From IMG/VR virus record IMGVR_UViG_3300036781_000418, positions 124,001 through 188,000 of that record: 64,000 nt of DNA. The stretch is one strand, 5' to 3'. Both the position numbers and the translations under genes were made by a program. Each line of letters begins with the position of its first letter. The stretch's first letter is position 1. The notes beneath the pieces are model-generated. The model saw only the letters and a list, made by a program, of their open reading frames with translations, was not told the DNA's origin and made no database searches. Origin of the DNA: a virus. This document shows, piece by piece, positions 5,715 through 63,219 of the stretch.

Positions 5715-5719
5715 ATAAG
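5711..5719 (+). promoter_or_regulatory. Late promoter, GTAAATA, overlapping the portal stop codon
   Basis: GTAAATAAG contains the portal TAA stop. The gp21 start is 25 nt beyond the motif. It would give the protease its own late transcript with a leader of about 20 nt containing GGAG. Confidence 0.5.
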
Positions 5720-5742
5720 CCATCACCCGTATTGGAGTCCCT

Positions 5743-6354
5743 ATGCAACAGATCCTAAAAGAATACCTCGCCCCTCAGGTGGCCAACCTCACCGAGATGA
5801 AGCAACACAATGGGGACACGTACCTCAGCGGCATCTTGATGCAGTCGGAGGTTATCAACGGCAACGGTCGTAAGTACCGTCGCGGCGAGCTTTCATCGGT
5901 CGTCGAAGAATGCTTTAAGAAGCTGAAGTCCGGCATGTACATCATGGGTGAACTGAACCACCCAGATACGCTGTCCATCGACCTGAACAACGTCTCCCAT
6001 GCCATCACCGAGATGCGCATGGACGGCAACAACGTCGTCGGTCGTATGAAGCTGCTCGGCACCCCGAAGGGTCAGATCGCCAAGGCCATCATGGAAGGTG
6101 GCGTCCGGTTGGGCGTCTCCTCACGTGGTACAGGCTCAGTCAATGAATCTGGTGAAGTGTCTGGCTTTAACTTCGTGACGATGGACATTGTGTCCGTGCC
6201 GTCCGCCAAGGACGCCCTACCTGACCTCGTCTACGAGTCACTAAACTCCAAGAAGATCGTCACGCTGGCCGAGTCCGTGGTGCACGATGAGAAGGCTCAA
6301 GCCCACCTGTTCAAGGCGGTGTCCGCACTGATCCAATCGATCACCAAGAAGTAA
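5743..6354 (+). CDS. 21: Prohead protease, T4 gp21-like
   Basis: 203 residues, close to T4 gp21 (212). It is the serine protease that degrades the scaffold and trims head proteins after L/I-x-E sites during maturation. The probable catalytic His is in GELNHPD and the Ser in LGVSSRGTG; both sit in the order and spacing expected for the family. It follows the portal and precedes scaffold and capsid genes, as in T4. A shorter paralogue at 27171-27578 lacks both residues. The proposed internal-protein locus downstream supplies many candidate substrates. Confidence 0.9.
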   Translation: MQQILKEYLAPQVANLTEMKQHNGDTYLSGILMQSEVINGNGRKYRRGELSSVVEECFKKLKSGMYIMGELNHPDTLSIDLNNVSHAITEMRMDGNNVVGRMKLLGTPKGQIAKAIMEGGVRLGVSSRGTGSVNESGEVSGFNFVTMDIVSVPSAKDALPDLVYESLNSKKIVTLAESVVHDEKAQAHLFKAVSALIQSITKK

Positions 6355-6384
6355 ACCCACGTTCAAAACGTGACAACCGGGTCA

Positions 6385-6393
6385 GGTAAATAC
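6385..6393 (+). promoter_or_regulatory. Late promoter, GTAAATA
   Basis: GGTAAATAC lies 33 nt before the ATG at 6427 in the gap after the protease gene and matches the recurrent late motif. Confidence 0.5.
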
Positions 6394-6426
6394 TTGACCT
6401 TCCACTCAACTAAAGGAGTTCATCAC

Positions 6427-6591
6427 ATGGACTACAAAGAAACGCTCACCGACATGGTGAAGACCCTGATCGCACAAGACCAAGAAGGCGCACGCGCCAT
6501 TGCTCAAAGCATCGTTGTGGCAAAGTCACAAGGCCTCATGCACGGTACCTCAGCTGCTGAAGCTGAAACCACCACGCCTGAAGCGGAATAA
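6427..6591 (+). CDS. Small acidic head-locus protein, prohead core candidate
   Basis: 54 residues, beginning MDYKETLTDM and ending in a Glu/Thr-rich tail. The ATG is chosen over an in-frame GTG at 6370 because AAAGGAG lies just before it and because the GTG lies upstream of the late promoter. In T4 small core proteins gp67 and gp68 are encoded near gp21; this gene occupies the slot between protease and scaffold and may play that role, but similarity cannot be shown by eye. It is followed at once by a strong terminator. Confidence 0.7.
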   Translation: MDYKETLTDMVKTLIAQDQEGARAIAQSIVVAKSQGLMHGTSAAEAETTTPEAE

Positions 6592-6596
6592 GTCGT

Positions 6597-6635
6597 AGAC
6601 CACCAAAAACGTTGAGTTTTTGGTGGTCTTTTTGT
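6597..6635 (+). terminator. Rho-independent terminator after gp21 unit
   Basis: A perfect 14-bp stem (AGACCACCAAAAAC / GTTTTTGGTGGTCT) with a 5-nt loop is followed by TTTTT. It separates the protease unit from the scaffold-capsid unit. Confidence 0.9.
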
Positions 6636-6642
6636 GTGCTCG

Positions 6643-6650
6643 CTAAATAT
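6643..6650 (+). promoter_or_regulatory. Late promoter, GCTAAATA, for scaffold and capsid genes
   Basis: GCTAAATA lies just downstream of the terminator and about 88 nt before the scaffold start. No other promoter is evident for the capsid operon. Confidence 0.6.
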
Positions 6651-6737
6651 CACATGGCGATATTCGACCAAGGTTGAAGAAGCCGGCACAAATACCCGGG
6701 GTCTACGTTAGTGGACCTCACGTTTAAGGAGAAAGCA

Positions 6738-7637
6738 ATGGACGAAATTCTGCAGAAGCTGCTTGAGTCCGAGCTACTCAGTGAAGACACCCGCGCGCTC
6801 ATCAAAGAGCAGTGGACGACCCACGTTGAAGCTTACAAGGCGCAAGTCGCCGAGGAAACTTCCACCAAGGTCCGCCTGGAACTGACCGCTCAACTTACTG
6901 AACAGTTCACGCAAGAGCGTGACGAACTGGTCACGCAAGTCGACTCCCTCATCACTGAAGTTCTTACCAAGGAACTGAAGGAACTGAAGGACGACATCGA
7001 GTACTACCGCGATCTCGAAGCCACCTACGCTGAACGCCTCGTTGAAGAAAAGACTCGTCTCGCTCATGAAGTGCAGACGGAACTTGATCAGCTCGTCGAT
7101 CATCTGGATTCCTTCCTCGACCAAGTCCTCGCCGAAGAGTTCGAAGAACTCAAGGAAGACATTGAAGTCGTGAAGGCCAACCAGTTCGGCAAGAAAATCT
7201 TCGAAGCCTTCGCTGACACGTTCGCCAAGGCGCACGTAGATGAAAAGAGCGCAACCACCAAGCTGACCGTTTCGGAAGGTAAGGTAGTTGACCTGGAAAA
7301 GCGTCTTTCCGAAGCTGAGGAAAGCCGCAACCAACTGGTCCGTGAAGCCAAGCTTGAGAAGGTGCTCGCACCGCTGCAAGGCAAGAAGCGTGAACAGATG
7401 GCGATGCTCCTCAAGTCAATCGACACCGAGAAACTTGACGAGAGCTACAACTTCTTCATTGGCCGCATCATCAAGGGCGACTCGCAAGAGCAGCTTACTG
7501 AAGGTAAGGCTGATGATCGCAAGACCACTGTCGTGACAGGTGACAACACTGGACGCGTGGTTGATAAGACGCCAGCCCAACTGCAACTGGATGAAGAAAT
7601 GAAGAGCTTCTTCCGTGCCGCTGGCATTAAAAACTAA
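6738..7637 (+). CDS. 22: Prohead core scaffold protein, T4 gp22-like
   Basis: 299 residues, highly charged and almost entirely predicted coiled coil (repeats such as KELKELKDDIEYY). gp22 forms the internal core on which the capsid assembles and is destroyed by gp21. A likely cleavage site LTE/GKAD is present near residue 255. The ATG at 6738 is preferred to the in-frame GTG at 6711 because AAGGAG lies 7 nt before it. The call rests on composition, size and its place directly before the capsid gene. Confidence 0.85.
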   Translation: MDEILQKLLESELLSEDTRALIKEQWTTHVEAYKAQVAEETSTKVRLELTAQLTEQFTQERDELVTQVDSLITEVLTKELKELKDDIEYYRDLEATYAERLVEEKTRLAHEVQTELDQLVDHLDSFLDQVLAEEFEELKEDIEVVKANQFGKKIFEAFADTFAKAHVDEKSATTKLTVSEGKVVDLEKRLSEAEESRNQLVREAKLEKVLAPLQGKKREQMAMLLKSIDTEKLDESYNFFIGRIIKGDSQEQLTEGKADDRKTTVVTGDNTGRVVDKTPAQLQLDEEMKSFFRAAGIKN

Positions 7638-45236: not shown

Positions 45237-45280
45237 TTGCCAACTGGGGTGATAGAGGTACGATGCCTCTATCACCCCAG
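45237..45280 (+). promoter_or_regulatory. Promoter with -10 in loop of 15-bp inverted repeat
   Basis: -35 TTGCCA (45237-45242), 16-nt spacer, -10 TACGAT (45259-45264). The -10 is the loop of CTGGGGTGATAGAGG / CCTCTATCACCCCAG, a perfect 15-bp repeat. No T-run follows, so it is not an ordinary terminator. Confidence 0.65.
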
Positions 45281-45289
45281 AGGCATTTC

Positions 45290-46378
45290 ATGGACCACCT
45301 TAAGATCATCTCACAACTCAAGTCGCCAATCATCTGCGCACTGCCGTATGGCTCCAGGCTGTATGGAACCTCAACGCCTTCGTCTGACTACGACTACAAG
45401 GCCGTCTACATGCCCACGCTCCGTACCCTGCTCCTCAACAAGGAGCTGAAGGTGGAGCGAGCTCGCTTCCACGCCGACGGTACCCGAGCCGCGGACGGTG
45501 ACTCCATGACGGCCGACGGCCTGGAGATCGAAAGCTTCTCGATCCACAAACTGTTCCATGACTACGTGCGTGGTCAAGCCTACGCAATGGAGCTCGTGTT
45601 CGCCATGCAGCAAGGCTTCACGTTGACCGACGCGACGCTGACCACCGTGTGGGGCCAGTCGACCATGGCCACGCTGTCCAAGGAGCTGGTCGCCAAGGCA
45701 CCCCACAAGAACGTCTACTCCATGGTCTCCTTCGCGGTGAAGCAGACGATGGACTACGTGCAGCGTGGAGAACGGTTGAAGGCCGCCTCGAACGTGCTGC
45801 GCAAGGTCAAGAACTGGGAGTTGTTGCTCAAGACGAACGGTGCGGTGCCGCGGCTCGACACGATGGTCGCGTACGCGGACGACACTGGGTATGGAATCAT
45901 CACTGAGCGCGTGATCGACAACGTAGCTCGTGCGACCGGGTTGACCATCGGCGAGTCCATGAACCAGTCGAAGAAGATGGACACGCTCAAGCTGAACGGC
46001 CGCGAGTACCTTGAGACGACCCGCTTGGACCACCTCATCGGCGCGCTGGAAAAGTTGGTGGAGAGCTACGGCACACGCACCAACGAGGCCGCCGAGAAGG
46101 ACGTCGACTGGAAGTCGCTGAGCCACGCGGTGCGTGTGTACCAGCAGGTTGAGGAGTTCCTTGACACTGGCTTCATCACGTTCCCACGTGCCAACGTCCA
46201 ACAGTTGATCGACATCAAGGAAGGTCGAACGTCGCTTGAGGACGTGAAGGTCCTGCTACGCGACCTTGACACGCGCATTCACCCGCGTTGTGTCACGCCA
46301 ACTCAGACCGAGATCGCCGAGCTTGACAAGCAAGCCGACGCCATCCTATACAGCTGGGTTTACGAGGCCACGCTGTAG
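45290..46378 (+). CDS. RlaP-type nucleotidyltransferase
   Basis: 362 residues from ATG 45290 (AGAGG upstream; the in-frame ATG at 45263 overlaps the promoter). The polymerase-beta-like motif is clear: YGSRLYGTSTPSSDYDYKAV, with the G-S and D-x-D metal site, as in the predicted nucleotidyltransferase family RlaP. The large helical C-terminus may bind RNA. A tRNA or RNA end-modifying role alongside HD-Pnk and RNA ligase is plausible. Its last 33 nt overlap a convergent gene. Confidence 0.75.
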   Translation: MDHLKIISQLKSPIICALPYGSRLYGTSTPSSDYDYKAVYMPTLRTLLLNKELKVERARFHADGTRAADGDSMTADGLEIESFSIHKLFHDYVRGQAYAMELVFAMQQGFTLTDATLTTVWGQSTMATLSKELVAKAPHKNVYSMVSFAVKQTMDYVQRGERLKAASNVLRKVKNWELLLKTNGAVPRLDTMVAYADDTGYGIITERVIDNVARATGLTIGESMNQSKKMDTLKLNGREYLETTRLDHLIGALEKLVESYGTRTNEAAEKDVDWKSLSHAVRVYQQVEEFLDTGFITFPRANVQQLIDIKEGRTSLEDVKVLLRDLDTRIHPRCVTPTQTEIAELDKQADAILYSWVYEATL

Positions 46379-47297: not shown

Positions 47298-47708
47298 ATG
47301 ATAATCTACCACGCTTCACCGACACAGCTGGCCAGCTTCGGGCCAACCCCTGCCTGGTTTTCCACTAACACCCGTGACGCCGCGGGTTGGCATAAAGCCG
47401 GTGGCCAGGTGAAAAGCTACACGCACATCTGCACCTTCGCCGGCGTTATCGCGCCGATCACGACCGTGGTTGAGCTCGCCAAGCGGGTGTGGCCGAACGA
47501 CGAGTTCATCTACTCGATGCTGGACCCGCACATCGGCGAGTTTGAGGTGAGCAAGATCGAGGAGTTTGTCCGAGTGCTCAAGGTTGCCGGGTTTGACGCG
47601 GCCTATGTTGAGGACTACGACCCGCACGACTTCGAGCACGGTCGAACCATCAGCATGTGCGTCCTTAACCCGTCGAGCACGGTGCAGGTTCAGATCTTCA
47701 TGGAGTAA
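47298..47708 (+). CDS. ADP-ribosyltransferase-like protein
   Basis: 136 residues. The first strand IIYHASPTQL gives the H of an H-Y-E type active site, AWFSTNTRDAAGWHKAGGQV supplies the FST strand and following helix, and the C-terminal AGFDAAYVEDYD then MCVLNPSSTVQV matches the usual ...VVFDPSxIK end of ART domains. The catalytic Glu/Gln is not certain. T4 uses three ARTs (Alt, ModA, ModB) to modify host proteins; this could be a small analogue. Starts 1 nt after the upstream stop. Confidence 0.5.
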   Translation: MIIYHASPTQLASFGPTPAWFSTNTRDAAGWHKAGGQVKSYTHICTFAGVIAPITTVVELAKRVWPNDEFIYSMLDPHIGEFEVSKIEEFVRVLKVAGFDAAYVEDYDPHDFEHGRTISMCVLNPSSTVQVQIFME

Positions 47709-47726
47709 CGTACCCTGGTGCGGTGA

Positions 47727-47769
47727 TGTACAACGTGGGGCTGGTGTCTTAAAATGGCACCAGCCCCAC
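47727..47769 (+). promoter_or_regulatory. Promoter with -10 in loop of 12-bp inverted repeat
   Basis: TGTACA (47727-47732)-N17-TAAAAT (47750-47755). The arms GTGGGGCTGGTG and CACCAGCCCCAC (47735-47746, 47758-47769) flank the -10. Drives DNA ligase. Confidence 0.65.
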
Positions 47770-47784
47770 AACCGTTTACACACC

Positions 47785-49152
47785 ATGAACTTCGCCGACG
47801 TCCTGAAAACCTGTGAACAAGCCAGTGGTGCTGGCTCCAAGAAGGTCATCAAGGAGGCCTTGGGTCGCTTTGACGCGACTTCACGTCGCTTGATGTACTA
47901 CCTGTTCAACCCGTTCTACACGTTCGGCGTCAAGAAGTACGATCAACCAATCTGTCACACGGTCAACGAAAATGACCTGGACACCGCGATCAACGAGCTC
48001 TTCCTGACGCTGGACCAACTCCGCAACCGCGAGCTGACGGGCAACGCCGCCCGCAACGCCGTGACGGACATTCTCGAGCTCTTCACCGAGGACACGGCCA
48101 AGTACATCGCCCGTGTGATCGACAAGGACCCACAAGCTGGGTTCTCCAACGAGACCTACAACAAGGTCTGGCCTGACGATCCAGTGCCAATCTTCTCCGT
48201 GATGCTGGCCGACAAGTTGGCCGTGACGGAGACCGAGGCCGACGACGGTGGTGACGACTTTGACCAGATCGTCTACCCCATCTGGTCGGACGTGAAGTAC
48301 GACGGTGAACGCAACCTCTGCATCGTCAAAGAAACCGACATCACCTACCTGTCGCGCTCGGGCTTGGAAGCCGAGCACATGTACGGCCTGTTCGACGAAG
48401 AGCTCATCAAGATCCGCGCACACCTTGGCTATGACTTCGTGATGGACGGTGAACGGATGGCCGCCTCCTACATCGACACGATCAACGCCAAGAAGTCTGG
48501 CGCTGAGGGTGAGGTTGGTAAGAAGGCCATGCGCTTCCGAGTCTTCTTCATGATGTCGCTTGACAACTGGAACGCTCAGCAGTGCGCCACCACGATGCGC
48601 CAGAACCGTGCCAACCTCACCGCCATCTTCGCGGCCTGTGAGTGCGTCAAGCTGACCCAGACCGTTGGCCGTGAAGTCGTCGACCATGACGACATGATGA
48701 GCCACCTCGACGAGGTCACCAAGCCCGGTTACGACGGCCAGAAGAAAGGCCACGAGGGTTTGATCCTCAAGCAGTACGAAGCCTTGTACTCATGGGACCG
48801 CTCCATGTCATGGTGCAAGGTCAAGAAGTTCTACGAGGTGGACGTTCGCATCATGACCTACGAGATGGGTCGCAAGTCCCTGTCGCACACCATCGGTCGT
48901 GTCAACTACGTCGGCTTCCTTGAAGACGGTCGTCGTGTTGAAGGTGGCGTTGGATCTGGTCTGCGCCTGAAGTCGCGCAACGACGGCGCCCCAACCCGTG
49001 ACGAGCTGCTCGCCAACTGGGAGAAGTACGAAGGTACGACCATGGTGCTGAAGTACCAGGAAGTCTCGAAGGCCAAGGACAAGCAAGTCCTCAGCCTGCG
49101 CTTCCCCACGGTCTTCCGTTTCCGCGACGACAAGATCATCAACGTTGACTGA
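47785..49152 (+). CDS. 30: ATP-dependent DNA ligase, T4 gp30-like
   Basis: 455 residues (T4: 487). Nucleotidyltransferase motifs: I VKYDGER with Lys 171, IIIa/III around DFVMDGERM, IV HEGLILKQ, V WCKVKKF. OB-like C-terminus. It seals nicks on the phage DNA during replication and recombination. The ATG at 47785 is chosen because it lies 30 nt after the promoter and begins the ligase N-terminus (MNFADVLKTCEQ). No clear ribosome site. Confidence 0.93.
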   Translation: MNFADVLKTCEQASGAGSKKVIKEALGRFDATSRRLMYYLFNPFYTFGVKKYDQPICHTVNENDLDTAINELFLTLDQLRNRELTGNAARNAVTDILELFTEDTAKYIARVIDKDPQAGFSNETYNKVWPDDPVPIFSVMLADKLAVTETEADDGGDDFDQIVYPIWSDVKYDGERNLCIVKETDITYLSRSGLEAEHMYGLFDEELIKIRAHLGYDFVMDGERMAASYIDTINAKKSGAEGEVGKKAMRFRVFFMMSLDNWNAQQCATTMRQNRANLTAIFAACECVKLTQTVGREVVDHDDMMSHLDEVTKPGYDGQKKGHEGLILKQYEALYSWDRSMSWCKVKKFYEVDVRIMTYEMGRKSLSHTIGRVNYVGFLEDGRRVEGGVGSGLRLKSRNDGAPTRDELLANWEKYEGTTMVLKYQEVSKAKDKQVLSLRFPTVFRFRDDKIINVD

Positions 49153-52835: not shown

Positions 52836-54173
52836 ATGTCACGTAAGCTAGTTTCAGTCCGCACCATCGACGCGCTGCGCCCGATTCCCGGTGCGGACGC
52901 CATCGAGGTCGCAACCATCGGCGGCTGGGAGCTCGTGGTGAAGCGTGGCGAGTTCGAAGTGGGGGTCCCATGCCTGTACTTCGAGATCGACTCATTCCTA
53001 CCCAAGCACGTTCCGGCCTTCAGCTTCCTAATGACTCGTGGACTGCGCACCTTTGAGGGCGTCGAAGGCCACAAGCTGAAGACGATCCGCCTGCGTGGTC
53101 AGCGTTCGCAAGGCCTGGCCCTGCCGCTTACCATGTTCGCCTTCATGGAGCCGCTGCTCCGCGGTGTCCAAACAACGGACGAGGAGCTGGCCAACTACTG
53201 GCTGCCCGCCGAGAAGATTCCAATGTGGCGGGAGTACTTCTTCGGCATGCACGAGTACGAGGCCGCCCTGGCTCCACAGGACTTTGACTGGGCGCCGATG
53301 TTCGACGTGGTGAAGTGGGAAGTTGAACTGCCCGCCAGCTTGAAGGGTCAGGCCAAGGGCACGTTCCCGTCGTTCATCCGCAAGACGGACCAAGAGCGCT
53401 GCCAGAACATGAAGCAGGAGATCTTCGGTTCCCCTGACGAGACGTACGTGTTTGACGTCTCCACGCTGCCACAGGAGGCGATCGACGCGATGCTCCAGAA
53501 GGGTCACCTCCAAGTGATCAACGGCATCTACCACCGCATCGTGTCGGGGTTGGCTGGCCAAGATCCTGACACCGTGTACGAAGTCACGTTGAAGGTGGAC
53601 GGTTCGTCGTTCACCGCCTACGTCAAGGCCGACGACGATGGCAACGTGGTCACGGGTGTCTGCAGTCGGAACCTTGAGCTGAAGGTGAACGACGAGAACA
53701 AGGACAACGCGTTCGTCAAGATGTTCGTGGAGAGCGGTCTCCAGGCCGCGATGATCGAGATGTACAACAACCCAAACAACCACATTCCGGACGGTCGCCC
53801 ATTCGCGTTTGCGGTGCAGGGTGAGTTGATGGGGCCTGGCATTCAGAGCAACCGTGAAGGCTTCACGGAGAACAAGCTGTTCGTGTTCGACATCTTCGAC
53901 ATCAACCAAGGGTTCTACATGCCGCCGATGTTCCGACACGACGTCGTAGAGGAGCTGCAGAAGTTGGGCGCCAAGCTTGAACACGTGCCGATTCTCGACG
54001 CTTGCGCAAAGCTGTCCGACCTCGGGCTGCACGACATCGCGTCGATCTTGGCCTTCGCCAATGGCCCCAGCATCAACAACCCGGTTCGGGAAGGCGTCGT
54101 CTTCAAGCGCATGGACGGTCAGTTCAGCTTCAAGGCGATCAGCAACCTGTACCTGGAAATGGAGAAGGACTGA
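52836..54173 (+). CDS. RNA ligase, DRB0094/Rnl5-type
   Basis: 445 residues. An N-terminal OB-like domain (IPGADAIEVATIGGWELVV, FEVGVPCLYFEIDSFLP) is typical of the DRB0094 RNA ligase family. The catalytic part has motif I TLKVDGSSF (Lys 253), motif IIIa around FAVQGELMGPG, motif IV EGVVFKR and motif V FSFKAIS. It seals 3'-OH/5'-PO4 RNA ends, probably after healing by the HD-Pnk protein. Its stop shares a base with the next ATG. Confidence 0.85.
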   Translation: MSRKLVSVRTIDALRPIPGADAIEVATIGGWELVVKRGEFEVGVPCLYFEIDSFLPKHVPAFSFLMTRGLRTFEGVEGHKLKTIRLRGQRSQGLALPLTMFAFMEPLLRGVQTTDEELANYWLPAEKIPMWREYFFGMHEYEAALAPQDFDWAPMFDVVKWEVELPASLKGQAKGTFPSFIRKTDQERCQNMKQEIFGSPDETYVFDVSTLPQEAIDAMLQKGHLQVINGIYHRIVSGLAGQDPDTVYEVTLKVDGSSFTAYVKADDDGNVVTGVCSRNLELKVNDENKDNAFVKMFVESGLQAAMIEMYNNPNNHIPDGRPFAFAVQGELMGPGIQSNREGFTENKLFVFDIFDINQGFYMPPMFRHDVVEELQKLGAKLEHVPILDACAKLSDLGLHDIASILAFANGPSINNPVREGVVFKRMDGQFSFKAISNLYLEMEKD

Positions 54174-54407: not shown

Positions 54408-55061
54408 ATGTGGGACAAACTCAAGGGTTTGGTCATTGAGTCGGATCCGGCCCCCGCCGCGTCCGCACCTCAAGTGGCCGCACCTGGAAAACCGTTGGTG
54501 ACACCAATGGGCAGCACTCCGATCACGTTCACTCCGCCTGGTGTGAACATGGACTTCGTCAACGCGATCAAGAAGGCGATCTTCAGCCGGCCGAGCGCGT
54601 ACCTCACGCTCCTGGAGGCGTCCACGAAGTTGGAGGCCTTCATCGCGGATCCGAACATGCGGATGAAAGCCGCGTGGCAGACTTCGGGTGGTGGTCGCTC
54701 CGCACAGGAAGTCGTGAACGCGGTCACCGCCCACTTGGCGGACGTGGACGGTGAAGAACGCAAGTTCAACGTCGCCGTACAGAACCAGATTCAGACGGCC
54801 GTCGGCACGTTGGTCAACCAAGCCGCCACGCTGCGACAGGACAATGACAACTGCCGCAAGCAGGTCGAACAGCTGACACAGCAGATCACCCAGCTCAACG
54901 ACCGCGTCACGCAACAAGACACGATGGCCTTGCAGCTCGACGGTCAAATCACCGACTCGCGCGCGAAGCTGGATCAGTCCTCCAACGAGTTCAAGGTCGC
55001 CGCACAGGTCGTGCGTGACGAGCTCTCCGCCCACCGCACCACCATCACCTCCACCCTTTAA
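54408..55061 (+). CDS. Coiled-coil protein of the envelope module
   Basis: 217 residues from ATG 54408 (AAGGGA upstream). A Pro/Ala-rich N-terminus precedes a helical domain and a long coiled coil (about 115-215). Soluble. It begins the module and stops 9 nt before the membrane coiled-coil protein, so the two may interact. Function unknown. Confidence 0.6.
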   Translation: MWDKLKGLVIESDPAPAASAPQVAAPGKPLVTPMGSTPITFTPPGVNMDFVNAIKKAIFSRPSAYLTLLEASTKLEAFIADPNMRMKAAWQTSGGGRSAQEVVNAVTAHLADVDGEERKFNVAVQNQIQTAVGTLVNQAATLRQDNDNCRKQVEQLTQQITQLNDRVTQQDTMALQLDGQITDSRAKLDQSSNEFKVAAQVVRDELSAHRTTITSTL

Positions 55062-55070
55062 GGTACCACC

Positions 55071-56090
55071 ATGTCGAATGAACTGACAACGCAACAAGCG
55101 AAGTCCTTCTGGGCTCGCCCAGAAGGCAAGACGGGTATGCTCGCCATCGCGGGCGGTGGCGTCGGCCTCTGGCTCGCCGGCCCCTTCCTCATCGGCCTCT
55201 TCGCGACGGCCATCACCCTCGTCGGCCAGGCGATCACGCTGACGATTCTCGGCGCGATCCTCTTCGCGCTGTGGATGATCTTGTCGAACAAGAAGTTCCA
55301 GACGCTGGTCTCCTACTTCTTCAAGTCCGCGATGCGCTCCCTCACCGGTGTGATCGTGGAGATCGATCCGATCGGCATCATGAAGTCGTACGTCGAGGAC
55401 ATGAAGAAGAAGCGCGACGTCATCTCCGAGGCGCGCGACAAGCTCAACGGCCAGGTGAAGAACCTCGAGCAGAAGATTCGCGACAACGACAGTGGTCGTG
55501 AAAACGCGATGGCCAAGGCGAAGGTTGCACAGGAAAAGGGCATGGGCGCCGCGCTTCAAGTGCAGGCCCGCCAAGCTGGCCGCCTGGAAAAGCTGAACGA
55601 AGGCAGCTTCAAGCCGATGCTCGCCAAGATGAACGCGCACAAGAAGGCGTTGGACAAGTACTACGAGGTCACGGGCATCGTGATCGAGGACTTGCAGAAC
55701 GAAGTTGAGATGCGCGAGATCCAGCGCAAGACCATCTTGGCCTCGTACTCCGCGATGAAGGCGGCTTCCGCGATCATCAACGGCGGCACGAACGAGAAGG
55801 AGCTCTTCGACCAAGCCACTGAGTTCGTCGCGATGGACTACGCCGCGAAGCTGGGTGAGATCGAGTCCTTCATCGAGAACTCGCAAGGCTTCGTCGACGG
55901 CATCGACATCGAGAACGGCGTCTACGAGGCGTCCGCCCTCAAGAACCTCGAGCTGTGGGAAGGTTCCGACTCCATCCTGCTCGGTCATGGCAAAGCGGCG
56001 CTGGTTCAAGCTGACCTGAGCGTCTCGCCGCTGACCACCAAGATCGGCAACGACTCGCTGGACTACGCAACGCTGCTGTCCCGCAAATAA
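55071..56090 (+). CDS. Membrane-anchored coiled-coil protein, PspA-like architecture
   Basis: 339 residues. Two hydrophobic helices (about 22-45 and 48-68), an amphipathic stretch, then a long charged coiled coil (about 105-245) of the PspA/IM30 type (GYVEDM-like start, KLNGQVKNLEQKIRDNDSG). A C-terminal domain follows. PspA proteins protect inner membranes. Unlike PspA it is anchored by helices. Resemblance is architectural; exact family unproven. Confidence 0.5.
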   Translation: MSNELTTQQAKSFWARPEGKTGMLAIAGGGVGLWLAGPFLIGLFATAITLVGQAITLTILGAILFALWMILSNKKFQTLVSYFFKSAMRSLTGVIVEIDPIGIMKSYVEDMKKKRDVISEARDKLNGQVKNLEQKIRDNDSGRENAMAKAKVAQEKGMGAALQVQARQAGRLEKLNEGSFKPMLAKMNAHKKALDKYYEVTGIVIEDLQNEVEMREIQRKTILASYSAMKAASAIINGGTNEKELFDQATEFVAMDYAAKLGEIESFIENSQGFVDGIDIENGVYEASALKNLELWEGSDSILLGHGKAALVQADLSVSPLTTKIGNDSLDYATLLSRK

Positions 56091-56099
56091 GTATGGTCC

Positions 56100-56132
56100 C
56101 TGGCAGCCGCTCCTTGGCTGCCAGCATAGAAT
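56100..56132 (+). promoter_or_regulatory. Hairpin and -10 box before SBP-OmpA gene
   Basis: CTGGCAGCC / GGCTGCCAG (9 bp, loop 7) then TAGAAT at 56127-56132. A transcript start about 55 nt before the ATG at 56192. Confidence 0.5.
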
Positions 56133-56191
56133 GACCTACGCCTCTGAGCGTGTATTAGCGTGTTCAACACTTCAAACCTGAGGGTTTAATC

Positions 56192-57934
56192 ATGGGAAAA
56201 CTGAAGACACTCCCCAAAGCCATCATCGGACTTATCGTCATCGGTGGTGTCGCTTTCGGAGTCAACACCGCCATCAACAAAGGCTACTTCAAGCAGAAAA
56301 CTGAAGTGGCCGTCCAGGTGCCGGACAAGATCGACGGCCTTGGTGGTGGCATCACCTCCACCGCACCGAAACCGACCGCAACCACAGCCATCAACGTGAT
56401 GGCCGCCACAACGGGTGAGACCCTCCGCGTGAAGACCATTCCGTGGAACGGCACGCTTGGCCTGATGCACGCCCAAGCGTCCGGCGCCTTCCGTGCCCAC
56501 AACCTCAACGTGGACATCAAGCGTGAAGACGACTACTCCAAGATGATCGCCGACATGGCGGCCTTCGCGAAGGATCCGACGCAAGGTGTTCACTTCACGG
56601 TGATCATGGGTGACGGCCTGCCGGCCTACATCATCGGCCTGAACGAGGCGCTCAAGCCCTTCGGTCAGCAGGCTGAAATGATCGCGGGTATCGGCTACTC
56701 GCGTGGTGAGGACAAGTGCGTGATCGCGGACGAGGCCAACCCTCGCGGTGCCCTGATCGCCGGCGTCCTTGGTGACGGCGACATCAACATCTGCATCAAG
56801 TACGCCGCGGACAACGCCATCCCGATCAACGCCAACCCGAAGACCTACGACCCCGACGCCATGAACTTCATGGGCACCGGCTCGTTCGTTGAAGCGGACG
56901 AGAAGTTCATCTCCTCGGCCCGCAACAACTACAAGGGTGGTGCGTGTGAAGAGCGCAAGAACACGAAGACCGGTGACAAGCAGACGGTCTGTGTCACGGG
57001 CTCGGCCACCTGGACTCCCGGTGACGTGAAGGACTTCAGCGAGCTGAAGAAGCTTGGCAAGTCGCTTCGTGTGATCGGCTCTACCAAGGAGTACGCATGG
57101 CAGATGCCAGCCGCGATCATCGGCAACAAGACGTGGATGGCCAACAACCGCCCGACGGTCGAAGCCTTCCTCGCCTCCATCCTTGAATCCGGTGAGAAGG
57201 TCCGCGGTGACAACCAAGCGCTGATGGTCGCCTCCGCCGAACAGGCCAAGGTGATCGGTGAGCAGGACGCTAGCTACTGGGCTGAAATGTTCAAGGGCAC
57301 GACGGACGTTAGCCCCAACGGCAAGACGATTCAGCTTGGTGGCTCCACCACCAACGGTCTCTCGGACGCGGCCTTCATGTTCGGCTTGAACGGAGCGGAC
57401 GACCTCTACTCCAAGGTGTACAACGTGTACGGCAAGATCTCGGTGAAGTACTTCCCCGACCTCATGCCCGGCGGTCTCCGCCCATACGGCGACGTCGTAA
57501 ACAAGTCGTTCATCCAAGCGTTGCTCGCCAAGGCCACCAACGTCGCGCAGGTCGACAAGCCGGTTTACTCCAGCACGACGACTGAAACCTTCGCGGCCAA
57601 GTCGTACGCCATCGAGTTCGAAACCGGCAAGGCCACCTTCTCGCCCTCCGCGGTCAAGGTGCTGAACGACCTGTTGGATCAAGCCGCCGTGACGACGCTG
57701 AACGTGCAGATCAACGGCCACACGGACAACACTGGTGATTCTGGCACGAACATCGGGCTGTCCAAGGACCGAGCCGAAGCGGTGAAGAACTTCCTGATGA
57801 AGAACGCACCGTCCACCTTCACGGCCGAACGTGTCCAAACGCGCGGCTACGGTGACACGCAACCGATCGCGGACAACAACACCGTCGCGGGCAAGGCCAA
57901 GAACCGCCGCGTTGAGGTTATCCTCCGCAAGTAA
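56192..57934 (+). CDS. Substrate-binding protein fused to OmpA domain
   Basis: 580 residues. N-terminal uncleaved anchor (LPKAIIGLIVIGGVAFGV), a periplasmic substrate-binding domain of NMT1/phosphate-type (about 75-460, beginning TLRVKTIPWNGTLGLMHAQA), and a C-terminal OmpA-like peptidoglycan-binding domain (about 475-580: INGHTDNTGDSG, LSKDRAEAV, KNRRVEVILRK). So it is tethered to the inner membrane and grips the cell wall. It is the likely partner of the permease and ATPase downstream. The anchor is related to that of the protein at 60246. Rare for a phage. Confidence 0.82.
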   Translation: MGKLKTLPKAIIGLIVIGGVAFGVNTAINKGYFKQKTEVAVQVPDKIDGLGGGITSTAPKPTATTAINVMAATTGETLRVKTIPWNGTLGLMHAQASGAFRAHNLNVDIKREDDYSKMIADMAAFAKDPTQGVHFTVIMGDGLPAYIIGLNEALKPFGQQAEMIAGIGYSRGEDKCVIADEANPRGALIAGVLGDGDINICIKYAADNAIPINANPKTYDPDAMNFMGTGSFVEADEKFISSARNNYKGGACEERKNTKTGDKQTVCVTGSATWTPGDVKDFSELKKLGKSLRVIGSTKEYAWQMPAAIIGNKTWMANNRPTVEAFLASILESGEKVRGDNQALMVASAEQAKVIGEQDASYWAEMFKGTTDVSPNGKTIQLGGSTTNGLSDAAFMFGLNGADDLYSKVYNVYGKISVKYFPDLMPGGLRPYGDVVNKSFIQALLAKATNVAQVDKPVYSSTTTETFAAKSYAIEFETGKATFSPSAVKVLNDLLDQAAVTTLNVQINGHTDNTGDSGTNIGLSKDRAEAVKNFLMKNAPSTFTAERVQTRGYGDTQPIADNNTVAGKAKNRRVEVILRK

Positions 57935-57977
57935 AAGTTACACGCTATGGTCGGGTTCCCTCCCTGACCATCTTTAT

Positions 57978-58007
57978 AGGACGAGTCGAAAGGCTCGTCC
58001 TTTTTTG
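57978..58007 (+). terminator. Strong terminator after SBP-OmpA gene
   Basis: AGGACGAG / CTCGTCCT stem, loop of 8 nt, then TTTTT. A weaker hairpin ATGGTC / GACCAT lies just before. Confidence 0.92.
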
Positions 58008-58136
58008 ACTCGTGAGCACCACCAGACGGCGACCGGTTGCACCCGAATATACGATGCACAGAGCACAACACCGTAGCCGGCCAGTGCCTCAGACGTCGCC
58101 TCGTGTCGCCGAACGACGTACACCTGAATTCACTCG

Positions 58137-58165
58137 TTCACAACGGCTTGGCCGATCGTTATGAT
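58137..58165 (+). promoter_or_regulatory. Sigma70-type promoter before permease
   Basis: TTCACA-N17-TATGAT, the best-spaced classic promoter in the module. Confidence 0.65.
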
Positions 58166-58194
58166 GGTCGAGCGTGTACTAACCGAGATCAACT

Positions 58195-58974
58195 ATGAAC
58201 GTTCTTGAACCCTACCACCTAGGACGGCGCTTCAACCTGAAGCTGCTGTCCGGCATCTCAGCTGGCGTGATGTTCGTCGCGTGGATGCTGGCTCCCGCCT
58301 CCACTGGCATTCCGTCGCCGCTCGCCATCGCGATAGCGTGGAACAACATGGCCTTGTCACAGGGCCTGTTGATCGAGCTGTTCAACTCGATGGTGGTGAT
58401 CTGGCAGGCCCTGCTGTTCTCCGCCATCCTGTCATGTGGCATCGCCTTCCTCACGACGGCCGACATCTTCAAGGGTGTTGGGACGTTCATCGCCTCACTC
58501 CGGTTTCTAGGGTTTGCCGGCCTGACGTTCCTGTTCACGCTGTGGACGAGCAGCGGCACGTCCCTGAAGCTCGCGCTCCTCACCTTCGGCATGACGGTGT
58601 TTCTGACGCGCTCCACGATCGACGTGATCAAGTCCATTCCGCAGTCGGACATCGACTACGCCCGTTCACTCGGGCTGAGTGGCTGGCGACTCGCGTGGGA
58701 GGTTGGTGCTTGCGGCAAGCAGGCGGACATGCTCGACCTGGTGCGCCAGAACGCGGCCATCGGTTGGACGTTGCTCTCCATGGTGGAGGGCCTTGTCCGA
58801 AGTGAAGGCGGTGTCGGTGCGATGTTGCTCAGCCAGAACAAGTACTTCAACCTCAGCGCGGTCTTCGCGATCCAACTCACCATCCTCGCCTACGGCATTC
58901 TGCAGGACGTGGCGTTGAGTTGGATCCGTGGCGTCATCTGCCCGTGGACGCGCATTAACCGGAGCGACGAATGA
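58195..58974 (+). CDS. ABC transporter permease
   Basis: 259 residues with about six hydrophobic helices. The EAA-type cytoplasmic loop DYARSLGLSGWRLAWEVGAC, followed by a helix with LVRQNAAIGWTL, contacts the ATPase and marks the SsuC/TauC-like family. It probably takes substrate from the tethered binding protein at 56192. Stop overlaps the next start. Confidence 0.82.
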   Translation: MNVLEPYHLGRRFNLKLLSGISAGVMFVAWMLAPASTGIPSPLAIAIAWNNMALSQGLLIELFNSMVVIWQALLFSAILSCGIAFLTTADIFKGVGTFIASLRFLGFAGLTFLFTLWTSSGTSLKLALLTFGMTVFLTRSTIDVIKSIPQSDIDYARSLGLSGWRLAWEVGACGKQADMLDLVRQNAAIGWTLLSMVEGLVRSEGGVGAMLLSQNKYFNLSAVFAIQLTILAYGILQDVALSWIRGVICPWTRINRSDE

Positions 58975-59366
58975 CCTTCGTTATCATCAACACCAACTTG
59001 GCGGTTCGCCCGGTCCGTGATCACCCCATTCCGAATCACCGTGACCGACTTGAAGTGCGCCCCCACCTGTGGAAGAACGAAAAAGGAGATGGGTGGTACT
59101 GTGCACGGAAACCGGCTGGCCACTCATACCCAGAATACTCGATCAACGGCATGGCGCCCACGGCGCTTGAAGCCTGGGCCAGGTGGAAGATACGAGACCA
59201 GCGCCGAGTTCGCATTCCTCGCGCTGGCATTCAGAACAAGCGTGATACGCGCAACTGGTTCTTCGACGGTTGCTTCTACATCAGCTCCTACATTTCGCAT
59301 GAAGGAGTTCTGCGCATCATCCACGGCTACGACCCAATCACCGACGAACTCATCTTGAGGGGCTAA
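58971..59366 (+). CDS. Unknown protein between permease and ATPase
   Basis: 131 residues, basic with many aromatic residues, no transmembrane segment. Coupled to the permease by ATGA. Appears phage-specific; unknown. Confidence 0.55.
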   Translation: MTFVIINTNLAVRPVRDHPIPNHRDRLEVRPHLWKNEKGDGWYCARKPAGHSYPEYSINGMAPTALEAWARWKIRDQRRVRIPRAGIQNKRDTRNWFFDGCFYISSYISHEGVLRIIHGYDPITDELILRG

Positions 59367-59367
59367 C

Positions 59368-60162
59368 TTGAACTACGAGAAACACGAGCGACTCCTGACG
59401 GTCGACCACCTCAACCTGCAGTACGGTGAGAAGATCATTCTGCGTGACGTCAACGTCTGCATCGACAACATCACCCGCCCTGACACGGTGCAAGGCCAGG
59501 TGGTCGCGCTCCTTGGCCCATCGGGTATCGGTAAGACGCAGCTCTTCCGCTGCCTGTCGGGCATGCAGCAAGCGACCAACGGGCACGTGCTCATCGGTGA
59601 TCAGCAGCTGCAAGTCAACGGTGGTGAGGTTGGCGTGGTGCAGCAAGCCTACCCACTCTTCGCCCACCGTACGGTGCTCAGCAACCTGCGCCTGGCCGCC
59701 AGAAAACTTGGCAAAAACTCCGAGCCGGAGATTGAGCGGCTGCTCACCCACTTCGGACTGCAGGACAAGAAGAAGTCCTACCCCACCGAGCTGAGTGGCG
59801 GTCAGCGCCAACGCATCGCGATCATCCAGCAGCTGCTGTGTTCCAACCACTTCCTGCTCATGGACGAGCCGTTCAGCGGCCTTGACGTGATGGCGAAGCA
59901 GCGGGTGTTCGACACGATCCGCACCGTGAGTCAGGCTCATGACCTGAACACGATCATCTTCACGACACACGACCTGGAGGCGGCCGTGAACTTGGCCGAC
60001 AACATCTGGGTGCTTGGCCGAGTTGAAGGCCAGCCGGGCGCGACGATCGTGCAGCAGATTGACTTGGCCGCGGCCGGCCTTGCATGGTCGCCGGACATCG
60101 AGCACCACCCGAAGTATTGGCCCATGGTGTTGCAGCTCAAGGAGCTGTTCAAGCACCTTTAA
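59368..60162 (+). CDS. ABC transporter ATPase (TTG start)
   Basis: 264 residues, TTG start with GAGGGG at good spacing. Walker A GPSGIGKT (50-57), Q-loop VQQAYPL (about 91), signature LSGGQ (142-146), Walker B LLMDEP (163-168), switch His 201. All active residues intact. Energises the permease at 58195. Closest class is the nitrate/sulfonate/taurine group. Confidence 0.88.
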   Translation: MNYEKHERLLTVDHLNLQYGEKIILRDVNVCIDNITRPDTVQGQVVALLGPSGIGKTQLFRCLSGMQQATNGHVLIGDQQLQVNGGEVGVVQQAYPLFAHRTVLSNLRLAARKLGKNSEPEIERLLTHFGLQDKKKSYPTELSGGQRQRIAIIQQLLCSNHFLLMDEPFSGLDVMAKQRVFDTIRTVSQAHDLNTIIFTTHDLEAAVNLADNIWVLGRVEGQPGATIVQQIDLAAAGLAWSPDIEHHPKYWPMVLQLKELFKHL

Positions 60163-60245
60163 CCTGGTCCGTGAACCTTCATTCGTGCATGTTCGAACGA
60201 CGGCTTACGGACTAAAATGAAGTACCTTTAACTAGGAGGCGTGTA

Positions 60246-60515
60246 ATGAAGCTTAAGACTTTCCCGAAGGTTGTGATTGGTTTGGTGGTGCTCGGCGTGG
60301 CCGGCTTTTTCTTGTCCAAACAGGACTTGAGCAAGCTCGTTCCGCCGAAGAAGGTCGAGGTGGTGGAGCAACAGCCCGCCCAAGACAGTCCACCGGTCGT
60401 GCAACAGCAAGAACCCGTCCAGCAGGATCCGCCTGCCGCTCAGCCGGCGCCGCAGCCCGCTCAACCAGCACAGCAGGACGCCGGTTTGGCGGCCGTGCTG
60501 GGCAAGAAGAAGTGA
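60246..60515 (+). CDS. Anchored Pro/Gln-rich protein
   Basis: 89 residues. N-terminus KLKTFPKVVIGLVVLGV is clearly related to that of the SBP-OmpA protein, then a Pro/Gln/Ala linker to the C-terminus. Could be a periplasmic spacer. Ribosome site TAGGAGG. Upstream TAAAAT at about 60211. Confidence 0.65.
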   Translation: MKLKTFPKVVIGLVVLGVAGFFLSKQDLSKLVPPKKVEVVEQQPAQDSPPVVQQQEPVQQDPPAAQPAPQPAQPAQQDAGLAAVLGKKK

Positions 60516-60523
60516 GGTGAACC

Positions 60524-61150
60524 ATGGTCACACGTGCAAAGACAAGCACACCAGCCACGCTGGACAAGGCCACCAAGCCACTTTGGACTGCCTTGGACCC
60601 TGAGAACTACAAGGGTCCGAACTTTGACAAGGAACCGCTGAAGGGCCTTGGACTGTTGGTTCGCGACGAGGTCACCGGCTACACTGGCATGGTCACTCAA
60701 GTCAGCGTCCTGCTGAGCGGTAACGTCCAGTTCGCCGTTCAGCCGTCCTCCACCGACTGTGGGGTGACAATGCCCGACGCGATGCAGTTGGACGTACATT
60801 CGCTCAAGGCCGTCGGTGATGGTCTGTCGAAGACCGTCATCAAGGTGCCGAATCCGACGACCATTCCGCTCGGCGTCGAGGTTGAGGACATCATCACTGG
60901 TATTAAGGCGATAACGACCCAGAAGACCACGTTCATGAACGGCTGTGAGGTCTTCTTGCTTGAGGTCGCGTTGAAGAACCGCCAGCCACTGACGGAGTTT
61001 GCCCACCACATCAACGCCATCCGCCTCAAGGTAACTGGCAAGAATGACAAGACCAAGCAGCTCAACTTGCCGCCCGCTGACGACCGGGGCCGCCCTCCTG
61101 GTGGACCGAGCAAACGGCTCACCCACACTCCCACCACACGTCTCCGTTAA
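60524..61150 (+). CDS. Tandem-repeat beta protein, unknown
   Basis: 208 residues. Two related units, GLLVRDEVTGYTGMVTQVSV and GVEVEDIITGIKAITTQKTT, resemble a small KOW-like module I associate with phage proteins. Basic C-terminus. Its place inside a transporter module suggests phage adaptation. Function unknown. Confidence 0.6.
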   Translation: MVTRAKTSTPATLDKATKPLWTALDPENYKGPNFDKEPLKGLGLLVRDEVTGYTGMVTQVSVLLSGNVQFAVQPSSTDCGVTMPDAMQLDVHSLKAVGDGLSKTVIKVPNPTTIPLGVEVEDIITGIKAITTQKTTFMNGCEVFLLEVALKNRQPLTEFAHHINAIRLKVTGKNDKTKQLNLPPADDRGRPPGGPSKRLTHTPTTRLR

Positions 61151-61159
61151 GGACCAACC

Positions 61160-62050
61160 ATGAAGAAGACACTTTCCCTGCTGCTCGGTGTTGTGCTGAG
61201 CATGGGTGCCCACGCCGCCTCAGTTGGCATCGCCAGCGGCAACACCACGGGCACCAACTACCCGATGGCCGAGGACATCAAGCGTGTGTGCAGCACGCCG
61301 CAGTCGCCGATCTATAACGTGGTGTCTGACGGTTCGGTGGACAACATCTTCAAGATCTACAACGACAAGTCCGTCCAGTACGGCATCATTCAAGCCGACG
61401 CACTGGTCTACCAGCAAGGCATCGACAAGAAGATGATGAGCAACATCTTGATGGTGTTCCCGTTCTTCTCGACGGAGATTCACCTGATCGTGAAGGACGG
61501 TGCGCCCATCACCGACATCAGCCAGCTGCGTGGCAAGCGCGTGGTTGAAGGTCCTGAAGGTTCCGGCACGTGGGTGACGGTGCAGGTGATCAAGGCCCTC
61601 ACCGGACTTCAGTGGACCGCCATCAACAAGAGCCAGCAGGACGGCTTCAACGCGGTGATGAGCAACCAAGCGGACGCTGAGTTTATTGTGGCTGGCGCGC
61701 CAATCAGCCTGCTGCAAAAGTCGACTGGGTTTCGCCTCGTGCCCATCAAGCACCCAGCGCTGGACGGCTTCAAGTTGTACACGAAGACGATGCTGAGCTC
61801 TGGCATGTACCCGTCGGTCCGTGGCACAGTGTCCACGTACAAGGTGGACAACGTGTTGGCGACGTACGCCTTCAAGAACCAATACCAGCGGGAGATTGGC
61901 GACCTCGTGACGTGCATCGCGAGGAACATCGGTGAACTCCAGCAGACTGGACATCCGAAGTGGCGTGACGTCGATCCGGCGGATATTAACCGGATTGACT
62001 GGCCTGCACATCCGGCCGCCGTCGCCGCCATCAAGCGCGTTTCCCGGTAA
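61160..62050 (+). CDS. TAXI-family periplasmic binding protein
   Basis: 296 residues. Signal peptide MKKTLSLLLGVVLSMGAHA, then the TAXI-type start SVGIASGNTTGTNYPMAED and a bilobal binding fold (KRVVEGPEGSGTW). TAXI proteins normally feed TRAP transporters; no TRAP membrane subunit is seen, so it may work with the ABC permease or alone. Ribosome site AAGGACC. Confidence 0.85.
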   Translation: MKKTLSLLLGVVLSMGAHAASVGIASGNTTGTNYPMAEDIKRVCSTPQSPIYNVVSDGSVDNIFKIYNDKSVQYGIIQADALVYQQGIDKKMMSNILMVFPFFSTEIHLIVKDGAPITDISQLRGKRVVEGPEGSGTWVTVQVIKALTGLQWTAINKSQQDGFNAVMSNQADAEFIVAGAPISLLQKSTGFRLVPIKHPALDGFKLYTKTMLSSGMYPSVRGTVSTYKVDNVLATYAFKNQYQREIGDLVTCIARNIGELQQTGHPKWRDVDPADINRIDWPAHPAAVAAIKRVSR

Positions 62051-62601: not shown

Positions 62602-63219
62602 ATGTCTGATGTGAACACAGCCCGAGAAAATGGCAAGAAGATCCTTCTGGTCTCTTCGCCAGTTCAAGCAATTCTGATGAACAAAGTGCTGATCGATGAG
62701 ATTCGATCCGGCTTTTGGGCGAATCACCGACCATCCGGCCATGGTGATCACTGGACTGAAGTCGAAGCGATCGTGTCGACGGACGGTCAACTCGGTCCGA
62801 TCAACTGGTCGGCACCACGCACCTACAACGTACTCAACCTCGACTTCTTCAACCCCAACGCTGACAAGCTCGTCGCGCTGGCCAAGTCCGTGAAGCCGAA
62901 CTCCAACGAGCGCTCCGTCAAGAAGGAGCTCATCGAACTTGGTCGCATCATCGGCGGCCGCCTGGCTTCGCGCACCTCCGAGCCGATCAAGCTCGAACGC
63001 GGCAACCACAAGCCTGGCACCTTGACCGCCTCGGTCCGCAAAGCCCGTGAAGCTGGTTGCACCTTGGCCGACGTGATCGCCCTCTCGAAAAGCGGTACGG
63101 CCGCCGCGAGCGTGAAGCCGAAGACGACCACCGTCAAGAAGCGCGTTGAAGACGCGGGTCTCGAACTTACCGGTGCGATCGCTGGTCCGATCACCCACGT
63201 CGCCGCCCTCGCCGAGTAA
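62602..63219 (+). CDS. Unknown protein
   Basis: 205 residues starting MSDVNTARENGKKILLVSSP. C-terminal half Lys/Ala/Thr-rich and basic. No domain recognised. No clear ribosome site; TAAGAT lies about 50 nt upstream. Confidence 0.65.
   Translation: MSDVNTARENGKKILLVSSPVQAILMNKVLIDEIRSGFWANHRPSGHGDHWTEVEAIVSTDGQLGPINWSAPRTYNVLNLDFFNPNADKLVALAKSVKPNSNERSVKKELIELGRIIGGRLASRTSEPIKLERGNHKPGTLTASVRKAREAGCTLADVIALSKSGTAAASVKPKTTTVKKRVEDAGLELTGAIAGPITHVAALAE

Follow-up and report, generated by a model that had tools for sequence, protein, structure and literature searches.

A putative envelope-maintenance and transport operon of bacterial type in huge phages

The closest described relative of the gene block studied here is a bacterial operon from a survey of phage shock proteins (Ravi et al. 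2024, mSystems, PMC11237479), in which a PspA/Snf7 protein with a transmembrane segment (TM) is encoded together with an ATP-binding cassette (ABC) ATPase, a permease and a PBPB-OmpA fusion, and for which the authors proposed that membrane remodelling and solute transport are connected. We focused on positions 54408-62050 of a 64,000-nucleotide stretch of viral DNA (the window), which comprises bases 124001-188000 of IMG/VR record IMGVR_UViG_3300036781_000418, a T4-like jumbo phage of 342,591 bp. An earlier reading made from the letters alone (the sequence-only reading) had proposed here an envelope transport module that would be exceptional for a phage. We found instead that its five-gene core, g1-g2-g3-g4-g6, is a version of the existing bacterial operon and not a phage invention. 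As in the published operon (example OGG56892.1), a TM-bearing PspA/Snf7-like protein stands beside an ABC ATPase, a permease and a periplasmic binding protein (PBP)-OmpA fusion, the likeness being judged by protein type. The phage copies differ in lying in huge phages and, in the window's clade, in the addition of a TAXI-type binding protein. Our search of the open-access literature on jumbo, huge, mega and Lak phages found no report of a phage version of the operon; as far as we know, the phage-borne version is new, the bacterial operon type having already been described.

The core has a fixed gene order, intact genes, assignable protein folds and the marks of purifying selection, and it has been exchanged with bacteria more than once. 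To the reading that phages carry this core as a copy of a bacterial envelope-maintenance and transport operon, serving the envelope of the infected cell, we give an even chance.

Products of the core genes

The block contains nine intact open reading frames (ORFs), all on the plus strand (Table 1), one for each of the eight products named in the sequence-only reading plus a small ORF (g5). As a single module the block stands for the five core genes, whereas the Pro/Gln-rich, tandem-beta and TAXI genes lie outside the widespread core.

Table 1. Features of the block, in window coordinates
Feature	Position	Strand	Basis or remark
g1, coiled-coil protein, 217 aa	54408..55061	+	ORF; module's first gene in relatives
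g2, PspA/ESCRT-III-like protein, 339 aa	55071..56090	+	Foldseek; PspA_IM30 sub-threshold
g3, TM anchor, NMT1/TauA-type solute-binding protein (SBP) and C-terminal OmpA domain, 580 aa	56192..57934	+	PF00691; AlphaFold2 (AF2); Foldseek
Intrinsic-terminator-like stem-loop after g3, 10 pairs and U tract	57978..58001	+	pattern match
Promoter-like site before g4, TTCACA-17-TATGAT	58137..58165	+	pattern match only
g4, permease of a predicted ABC importer, TauC/SsuC type, 259 aa	58195..58974	+	TauC 2e-6; order conserved
g5, small ORF between permease and ATPase	58971..59366	+	no match in relatives; outside core
g6, ABC ATPase, TTG start, 264 aa	59368..60162	+	PF00005 2e-27
g7, membrane anchor and Pro/Gln linker, 89 aa	60246..60515	+	matches TAXI N-terminus in L005/L006
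g8, phage protein, lineage-specific	60524..61150	+	phrog_16275 1e-11; absent from relatives' modules
g9, TAXI-type SBP with signal sequence, 296 aa	61160..62050	+	TIGR02122; conserved in clade

The coiled-coil protein g1 carries a conserved N-terminal motif (MWDKLKGLVIESD). Its neighbor g2 has an N-terminal hydrophobic region with two predicted TMs (about residues 23-73), followed by a predicted cytosolic helical hairpin. Since sequence searches of the PDB with SBP or g2 profiles gave nothing meaningful, folds were needed to place both proteins. In Foldseek, the g2 model matched Vipp1 first (5e-4), then PspA, CHMP1B, CHMP2A, CdvB and Snf7, so that its top matches are the hairpin proteins of the Vipp1/PspA/ESCRT-III superfamily. 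PspA_IM30 was also the best-matching family among the g2 homologues (best E 7e-5), but the g2 profile aligned over only 59 columns with the true PspA that occupies the syntenic position in acidobacterial operons (E 3e-4, probability 39%). Two N-terminal hydrophobic helices and a sub-threshold Pfam score set g2 apart from the superfamily, and we call it PspA/ESCRT-III-like, membership being not proven.

The wall-tethered SBP-OmpA fusion that had been proposed was borne out in g3, whose AF2 model (pLDDT 88, pTM 0.83) combines an SBP fold with a peptidoglycan-binding OmpA domain behind an N-terminal predicted TM helix (residues about 4-29). The SBP part matched TauA (3e-11), NrtA (5e-10), CmpA and SsuA in Foldseek; the C-terminus matched the OmpA, TagL and OprF domains there and PF00691 (OmpA) in sequence (5e-18). 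Among 107 SBP-OmpA proteins from phages and bacteria, 68 positions are conserved in at least 93%, including D512 and R527 of the g3 OmpA domain, which we take to contribute to peptidoglycan binding, as in OmpA domains generally. The many conserved acidic residues might, speculatively, point to a cationic solute.

The modelled ESCRT-III-like fold of g2 and the OmpA tether of g3 would also suit a part in infection itself, with g2 shaping the inner membrane for replication or assembly, or timing lysis by holding wall and membrane together, and the ABC unit acting as energy source. We consider this improbable, given that no membrane compartment or lysis link was seen and that the nearest cellular copies are those of uninfected bacteria.

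The remaining core genes encode parts of a predicted ABC importer. In the ATPase g6, the claim of intact key residues holds: Walker A (GPSGIGKT), Q-loop, LSGGQ, Walker B and H-loop are all present and near invariant among relatives. The evidence for the permease g4 is weaker; beyond its TauC match, the window copy scores 13.8 against PF00528 (cutoff 26.4), and the copy of a sister phage passes the cutoff. With the SBP fold of g3 included, the core codes for most of an importer and for its PspA-like partner. This importer resembles TauABC, SsuABC and NrtABC of the NitT/TauT family in SBP fold, in ATPase type and probably in permease type, but its SBP is membrane-anchored, fused to a peptidoglycan-binding OmpA domain and only ∼10% identical to solved SBPs.

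A complete importer with an intact ATPase and a conserved SBP domain, to which the window's clade has added a TAXI binding protein, and whose SBP-fold relatives bind sulfonates, nitrate, bicarbonate or pyrimidine precursors, could mainly feed the infected cell a scarce solute, with g2 merely stabilising the importer. This explanation appears rather unlikely to us, since it leaves unexplained why g1, g2 and the OmpA tether stay with the transporter in both phages and bacteria.

Distribution and exchange with bacteria

To collect viral relatives, we searched IMG/VR with an SBP-only alignment, because no usable motif came out of the full alignments of PspA and permease, and with two further queries. 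This yielded 72 distinct contigs carrying the module, so that its absence from all relatives, which would have counted against the sequence-only reading, is not what we observed. The same reading had suggested a survey of relatives for conserved order; of 57 viral contigs with enough flank, 54 carry the complete core in unchanged order. In eight IMG/VR contigs that we compared, RNA ligase, g1, g2, g3, g4, g6, g9 and g10 follow each other wherever length allows, and six related contigs keep both this order and its flanks, with an RNA ligase on the upstream side and g10 on the downstream side. Beyond the clade of the window, five genes, g1-g2-g3-g4-g6, make up the core.

Large contigs with the module carry phage hallmarks, namely terminase and, in 13 of the 16 records tested, a match to the T4-type major capsid protein. 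Compared with the window's phage, the capsid is 65-71% identical among members of its clade and ∼33% identical in the other main clade. Two known huge phages, LR756500 (462 kb) and Prevotella phage Lak-A1 (542 kb, complete genome), have the five core genes in the same order. With profiles that excluded both Lak and LR756500, all five Lak genes were recovered (g1 3e-10, g2 4e-43, g3 4e-14, g4 2e-8, g6 3e-31), as were the SBP-OmpA, permease and ATPase genes of LR756500, whose first two genes were assigned by position and from clade-mates. One 74-kb contig, L048 (IMGVR_UViG_3300005614_000040), encodes a Major Vault Protein-like ORF directly upstream of the module (4294-6738; MVP_shoulder 5e-22, Vault_3 4e-10); this contig may be bacterial, because no terminase or capsid was found on it.

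The window's record itself encodes a T4-like portal, major head protein and terminase as well as UvsX, helicase and ribonucleotide reductase. Its closest named terminases are ∼37-42% identical and belong to Stenotrophomonas CM1/RAS14, Xanthomonas XacN1 and PA5oct-like phages, in none of which the SBP-OmpA, permease or PspA-like queries found a match; a bona fide PspA as query likewise had no match in named phages. The named phages that were searched all lie outside the window's clade.

Among the phages, the five core genes each have pairwise dN/dS values of 0.01-0.27 and are thus under purifying selection. Taken with the conserved residues, this shows selection for function within phages, without indicating which function. 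The transfers described below did happen, and the genes could in principle be host genes acquired by chance that do nothing in the phage. We find this hardly credible in view of the purifying selection on all five genes, the synteny, the order and flanks (RNA ligase, g10) conserved in six related contigs, and the presence of the module in Lak-A1, a complete genome, and alongside genes for capsid and terminase.

Among bacterial genomes, a relative was encoded in 155 stretches, and we retained the 80 best. All five genes stand in the same order in Beta- and Gammaproteobacteria, some Acidobacteria, the Candidate Phyla Radiation (CPR) and Bacteroidota, while in other Acidobacteria, Myxococcota and Armatimonadota the profiles detect SBP-OmpA, permease and ATPase. 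In the acidobacterial locus L072, SBP-OmpA, permease and ATPase are preceded by one gene for a coiled-coil protein and one for a bona fide PspA_IM30 protein (3e-15), and are followed by an AAA+ gene.

For a view of the evolutionary history, we built a tree of 54 rows from concatenated SBP-OmpA, permease and ATPase sequences with "quick" searches. The six-phage clade of the window nests in the Betaproteobacteria, adjoining a Massilia metagenome-assembled genome (MAG), and the clade of LR756500, ten rows in all, falls within the Bacteroidota. A single clade of all 16 phage rows was rejected (log-likelihood lower by 781, p-AU 0.0003, with long or doubtful rows removed), and at least two exchanges between phages and bacteria therefore took place. 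Lak, L023, L045 and L048 stand on long branches and may represent further transfers. The nesting favours capture from host to phage, this direction being not strictly proven. The module's place in the tree would make the host of the window's phage a member of the Betaproteobacteria. MAG contigs can be mis-binned, and L131 (JASGCW010000002.1) looks like an example: it was binned as Limnohabitans, with a Bacteroidota-type module and Bacteroidota-like neighbors.

The bacterial copies also bear on a possible superinfection barrier, in which the products, predicted to lie at membrane and wall, would alter the envelope so that rival phages fail to inject. Exclusion genes are often carried by phages. 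The same operon is, however, chromosomal in bacteria of several phyla, and defence models were matched by generic domains only, PADLOC returning nothing but generic OmpA, ATPase and coiled-coil matches, so that we did not retain a defence-system reading. We hold such a barrier to be more improbable still than a part of the module in remodelling or lysis.

Genes and signals beside the core

The claimed TAXI protein, g9, was confirmed by profile (TIGR02122, 92.2 bits; cutoff 84.35), as were the OmpA domain and the ABC ATPase. Besides the window's clade, only phage Motura was found to have it, there without ABC genes. DctM (PF06808) was not found in the window's phage or three relatives, with positive controls, and g9 is therefore not a TRAP transporter by itself. 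In the relatives L005 and L006, a g7-like anchor and linker are fused directly to TAXI. The Pro/Gln-rich anchored protein of the sequence-only reading is thus an anchor plus linker, and, because it matches the N-terminal part of these fusions, g7 is probably a detached anchor of the TAXI protein. The tandem beta protein, g8, is an intact ORF with its phage family match, but it is not conserved in relatives.

In Achromobacter phage Motura (gp279-gp278-gp276), a TAXI SBP (25% identity) likewise follows two coiled-coil proteins, one of them with a hydrophobic N-terminus; it differs in having no SBP-OmpA, permease or ATPase beside TAXI. A relationship of gp278 to g2 was seen with a profile containing gp278 and lost when gp278 was left out; as profiles excluding gp278 did not recover it, we do not claim homology. 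At this locus (L013:3975-9757), the two coiled-coil proteins with hydrophobic segments and TAXI adjoin homospermidine synthase and glutathionylspermidine (GSP) synthase, which makes a phage polyamine cluster possible there. A polyamine link of the module itself, considered from these neighbors, was dropped, there being no GSP synthase in the window's phage or relatives.

Promoters and terminators had been described as organised within the block. Their pattern counts across it are no higher than in shuffles; what stands is one strong terminator followed by a promoter-like site between g3 and g4, and the core may therefore be read as two transcripts.

Upstream, the window encodes an RlaP-family RNA-repair nucleotidyltransferase (45263-46378), an ATP-dependent DNA ligase (47566-49152) and an RNA ligase (52836-54173), which suggests a nucleic-acid repair set; the RNA ligase adjoins the module in relatives too. 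Downstream, g10 (62602-63219), conserved and without known family, lies 3' of TAXI in all related contigs of sufficient length.

A possible role in the infected cell

If the core does serve the envelope of the infected cell, its parts could work together as follows. The g2 protein would sit in the inner membrane and assemble on its cytoplasmic face through the ESCRT-III-like hairpin, with g1 as a likely partner, and g4 and g6 would form a type I ABC importer. The g3 protein, held by its TM helix in the inner membrane and by its OmpA domain on the peptidoglycan, would pass a solute to g4 and thereby fix importer and ESCRT-like patch between membrane and wall; in the window's clade, the TAXI protein would be added as a second periplasmic receptor. 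During infection by a huge phage, the unit could thus keep the inner membrane tight and aligned with the wall during uptake of a solute, and the host would stay intact long enough for very large virions to be built.

Several observations weigh against this reading. The claim of a membrane-anchored PspA-like protein has fold support, but g2 scores 15.2 bits against Pfam PspA_IM30 (cutoff 33.9; E 0.017), its model has pLDDT 64 and pTM 0.38 and is confident only in the hairpin at about residues 100-220, and coiled coils draw unspecific matches. The AAA+ genes beside the bacterial loci L072 and L130 match nothing in the phage loci; this gene is optional in bacteria as well, not being seen beside the operon in Serratia L054. 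In addition, the terminator that separates g3 from g4 may break the unit in two.

Phage genomes are not recognised as carriers of complete multi-gene operons for transport and membrane maintenance, and here one occurs in fixed order in dozens of viral contigs, known huge phages among them, and has been exchanged with bacteria at least twice. This points to a problem shared by very large phages, such as prolonged infections or strain on the envelope, and offers a genetic way into it. A wider proposal, possible but somewhat doubtful in our view, is that an ESCRT-III-like remodelling machine, coupled through a wall-tethered SBP to an ABC transporter, was captured several times by huge phages with different hosts and then retained. 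If true, these phages would run an envelope-support system of their own, whose genes would form a functional class not previously described in phages. The module is also a compact system for testing the role of an uncharacterised bacterial operon. Because many huge phages, the window's phage among them, carry the complete operon of PspA/ESCRT-like protein and tethered importer, they probably take care of the host cell's envelope during infection.

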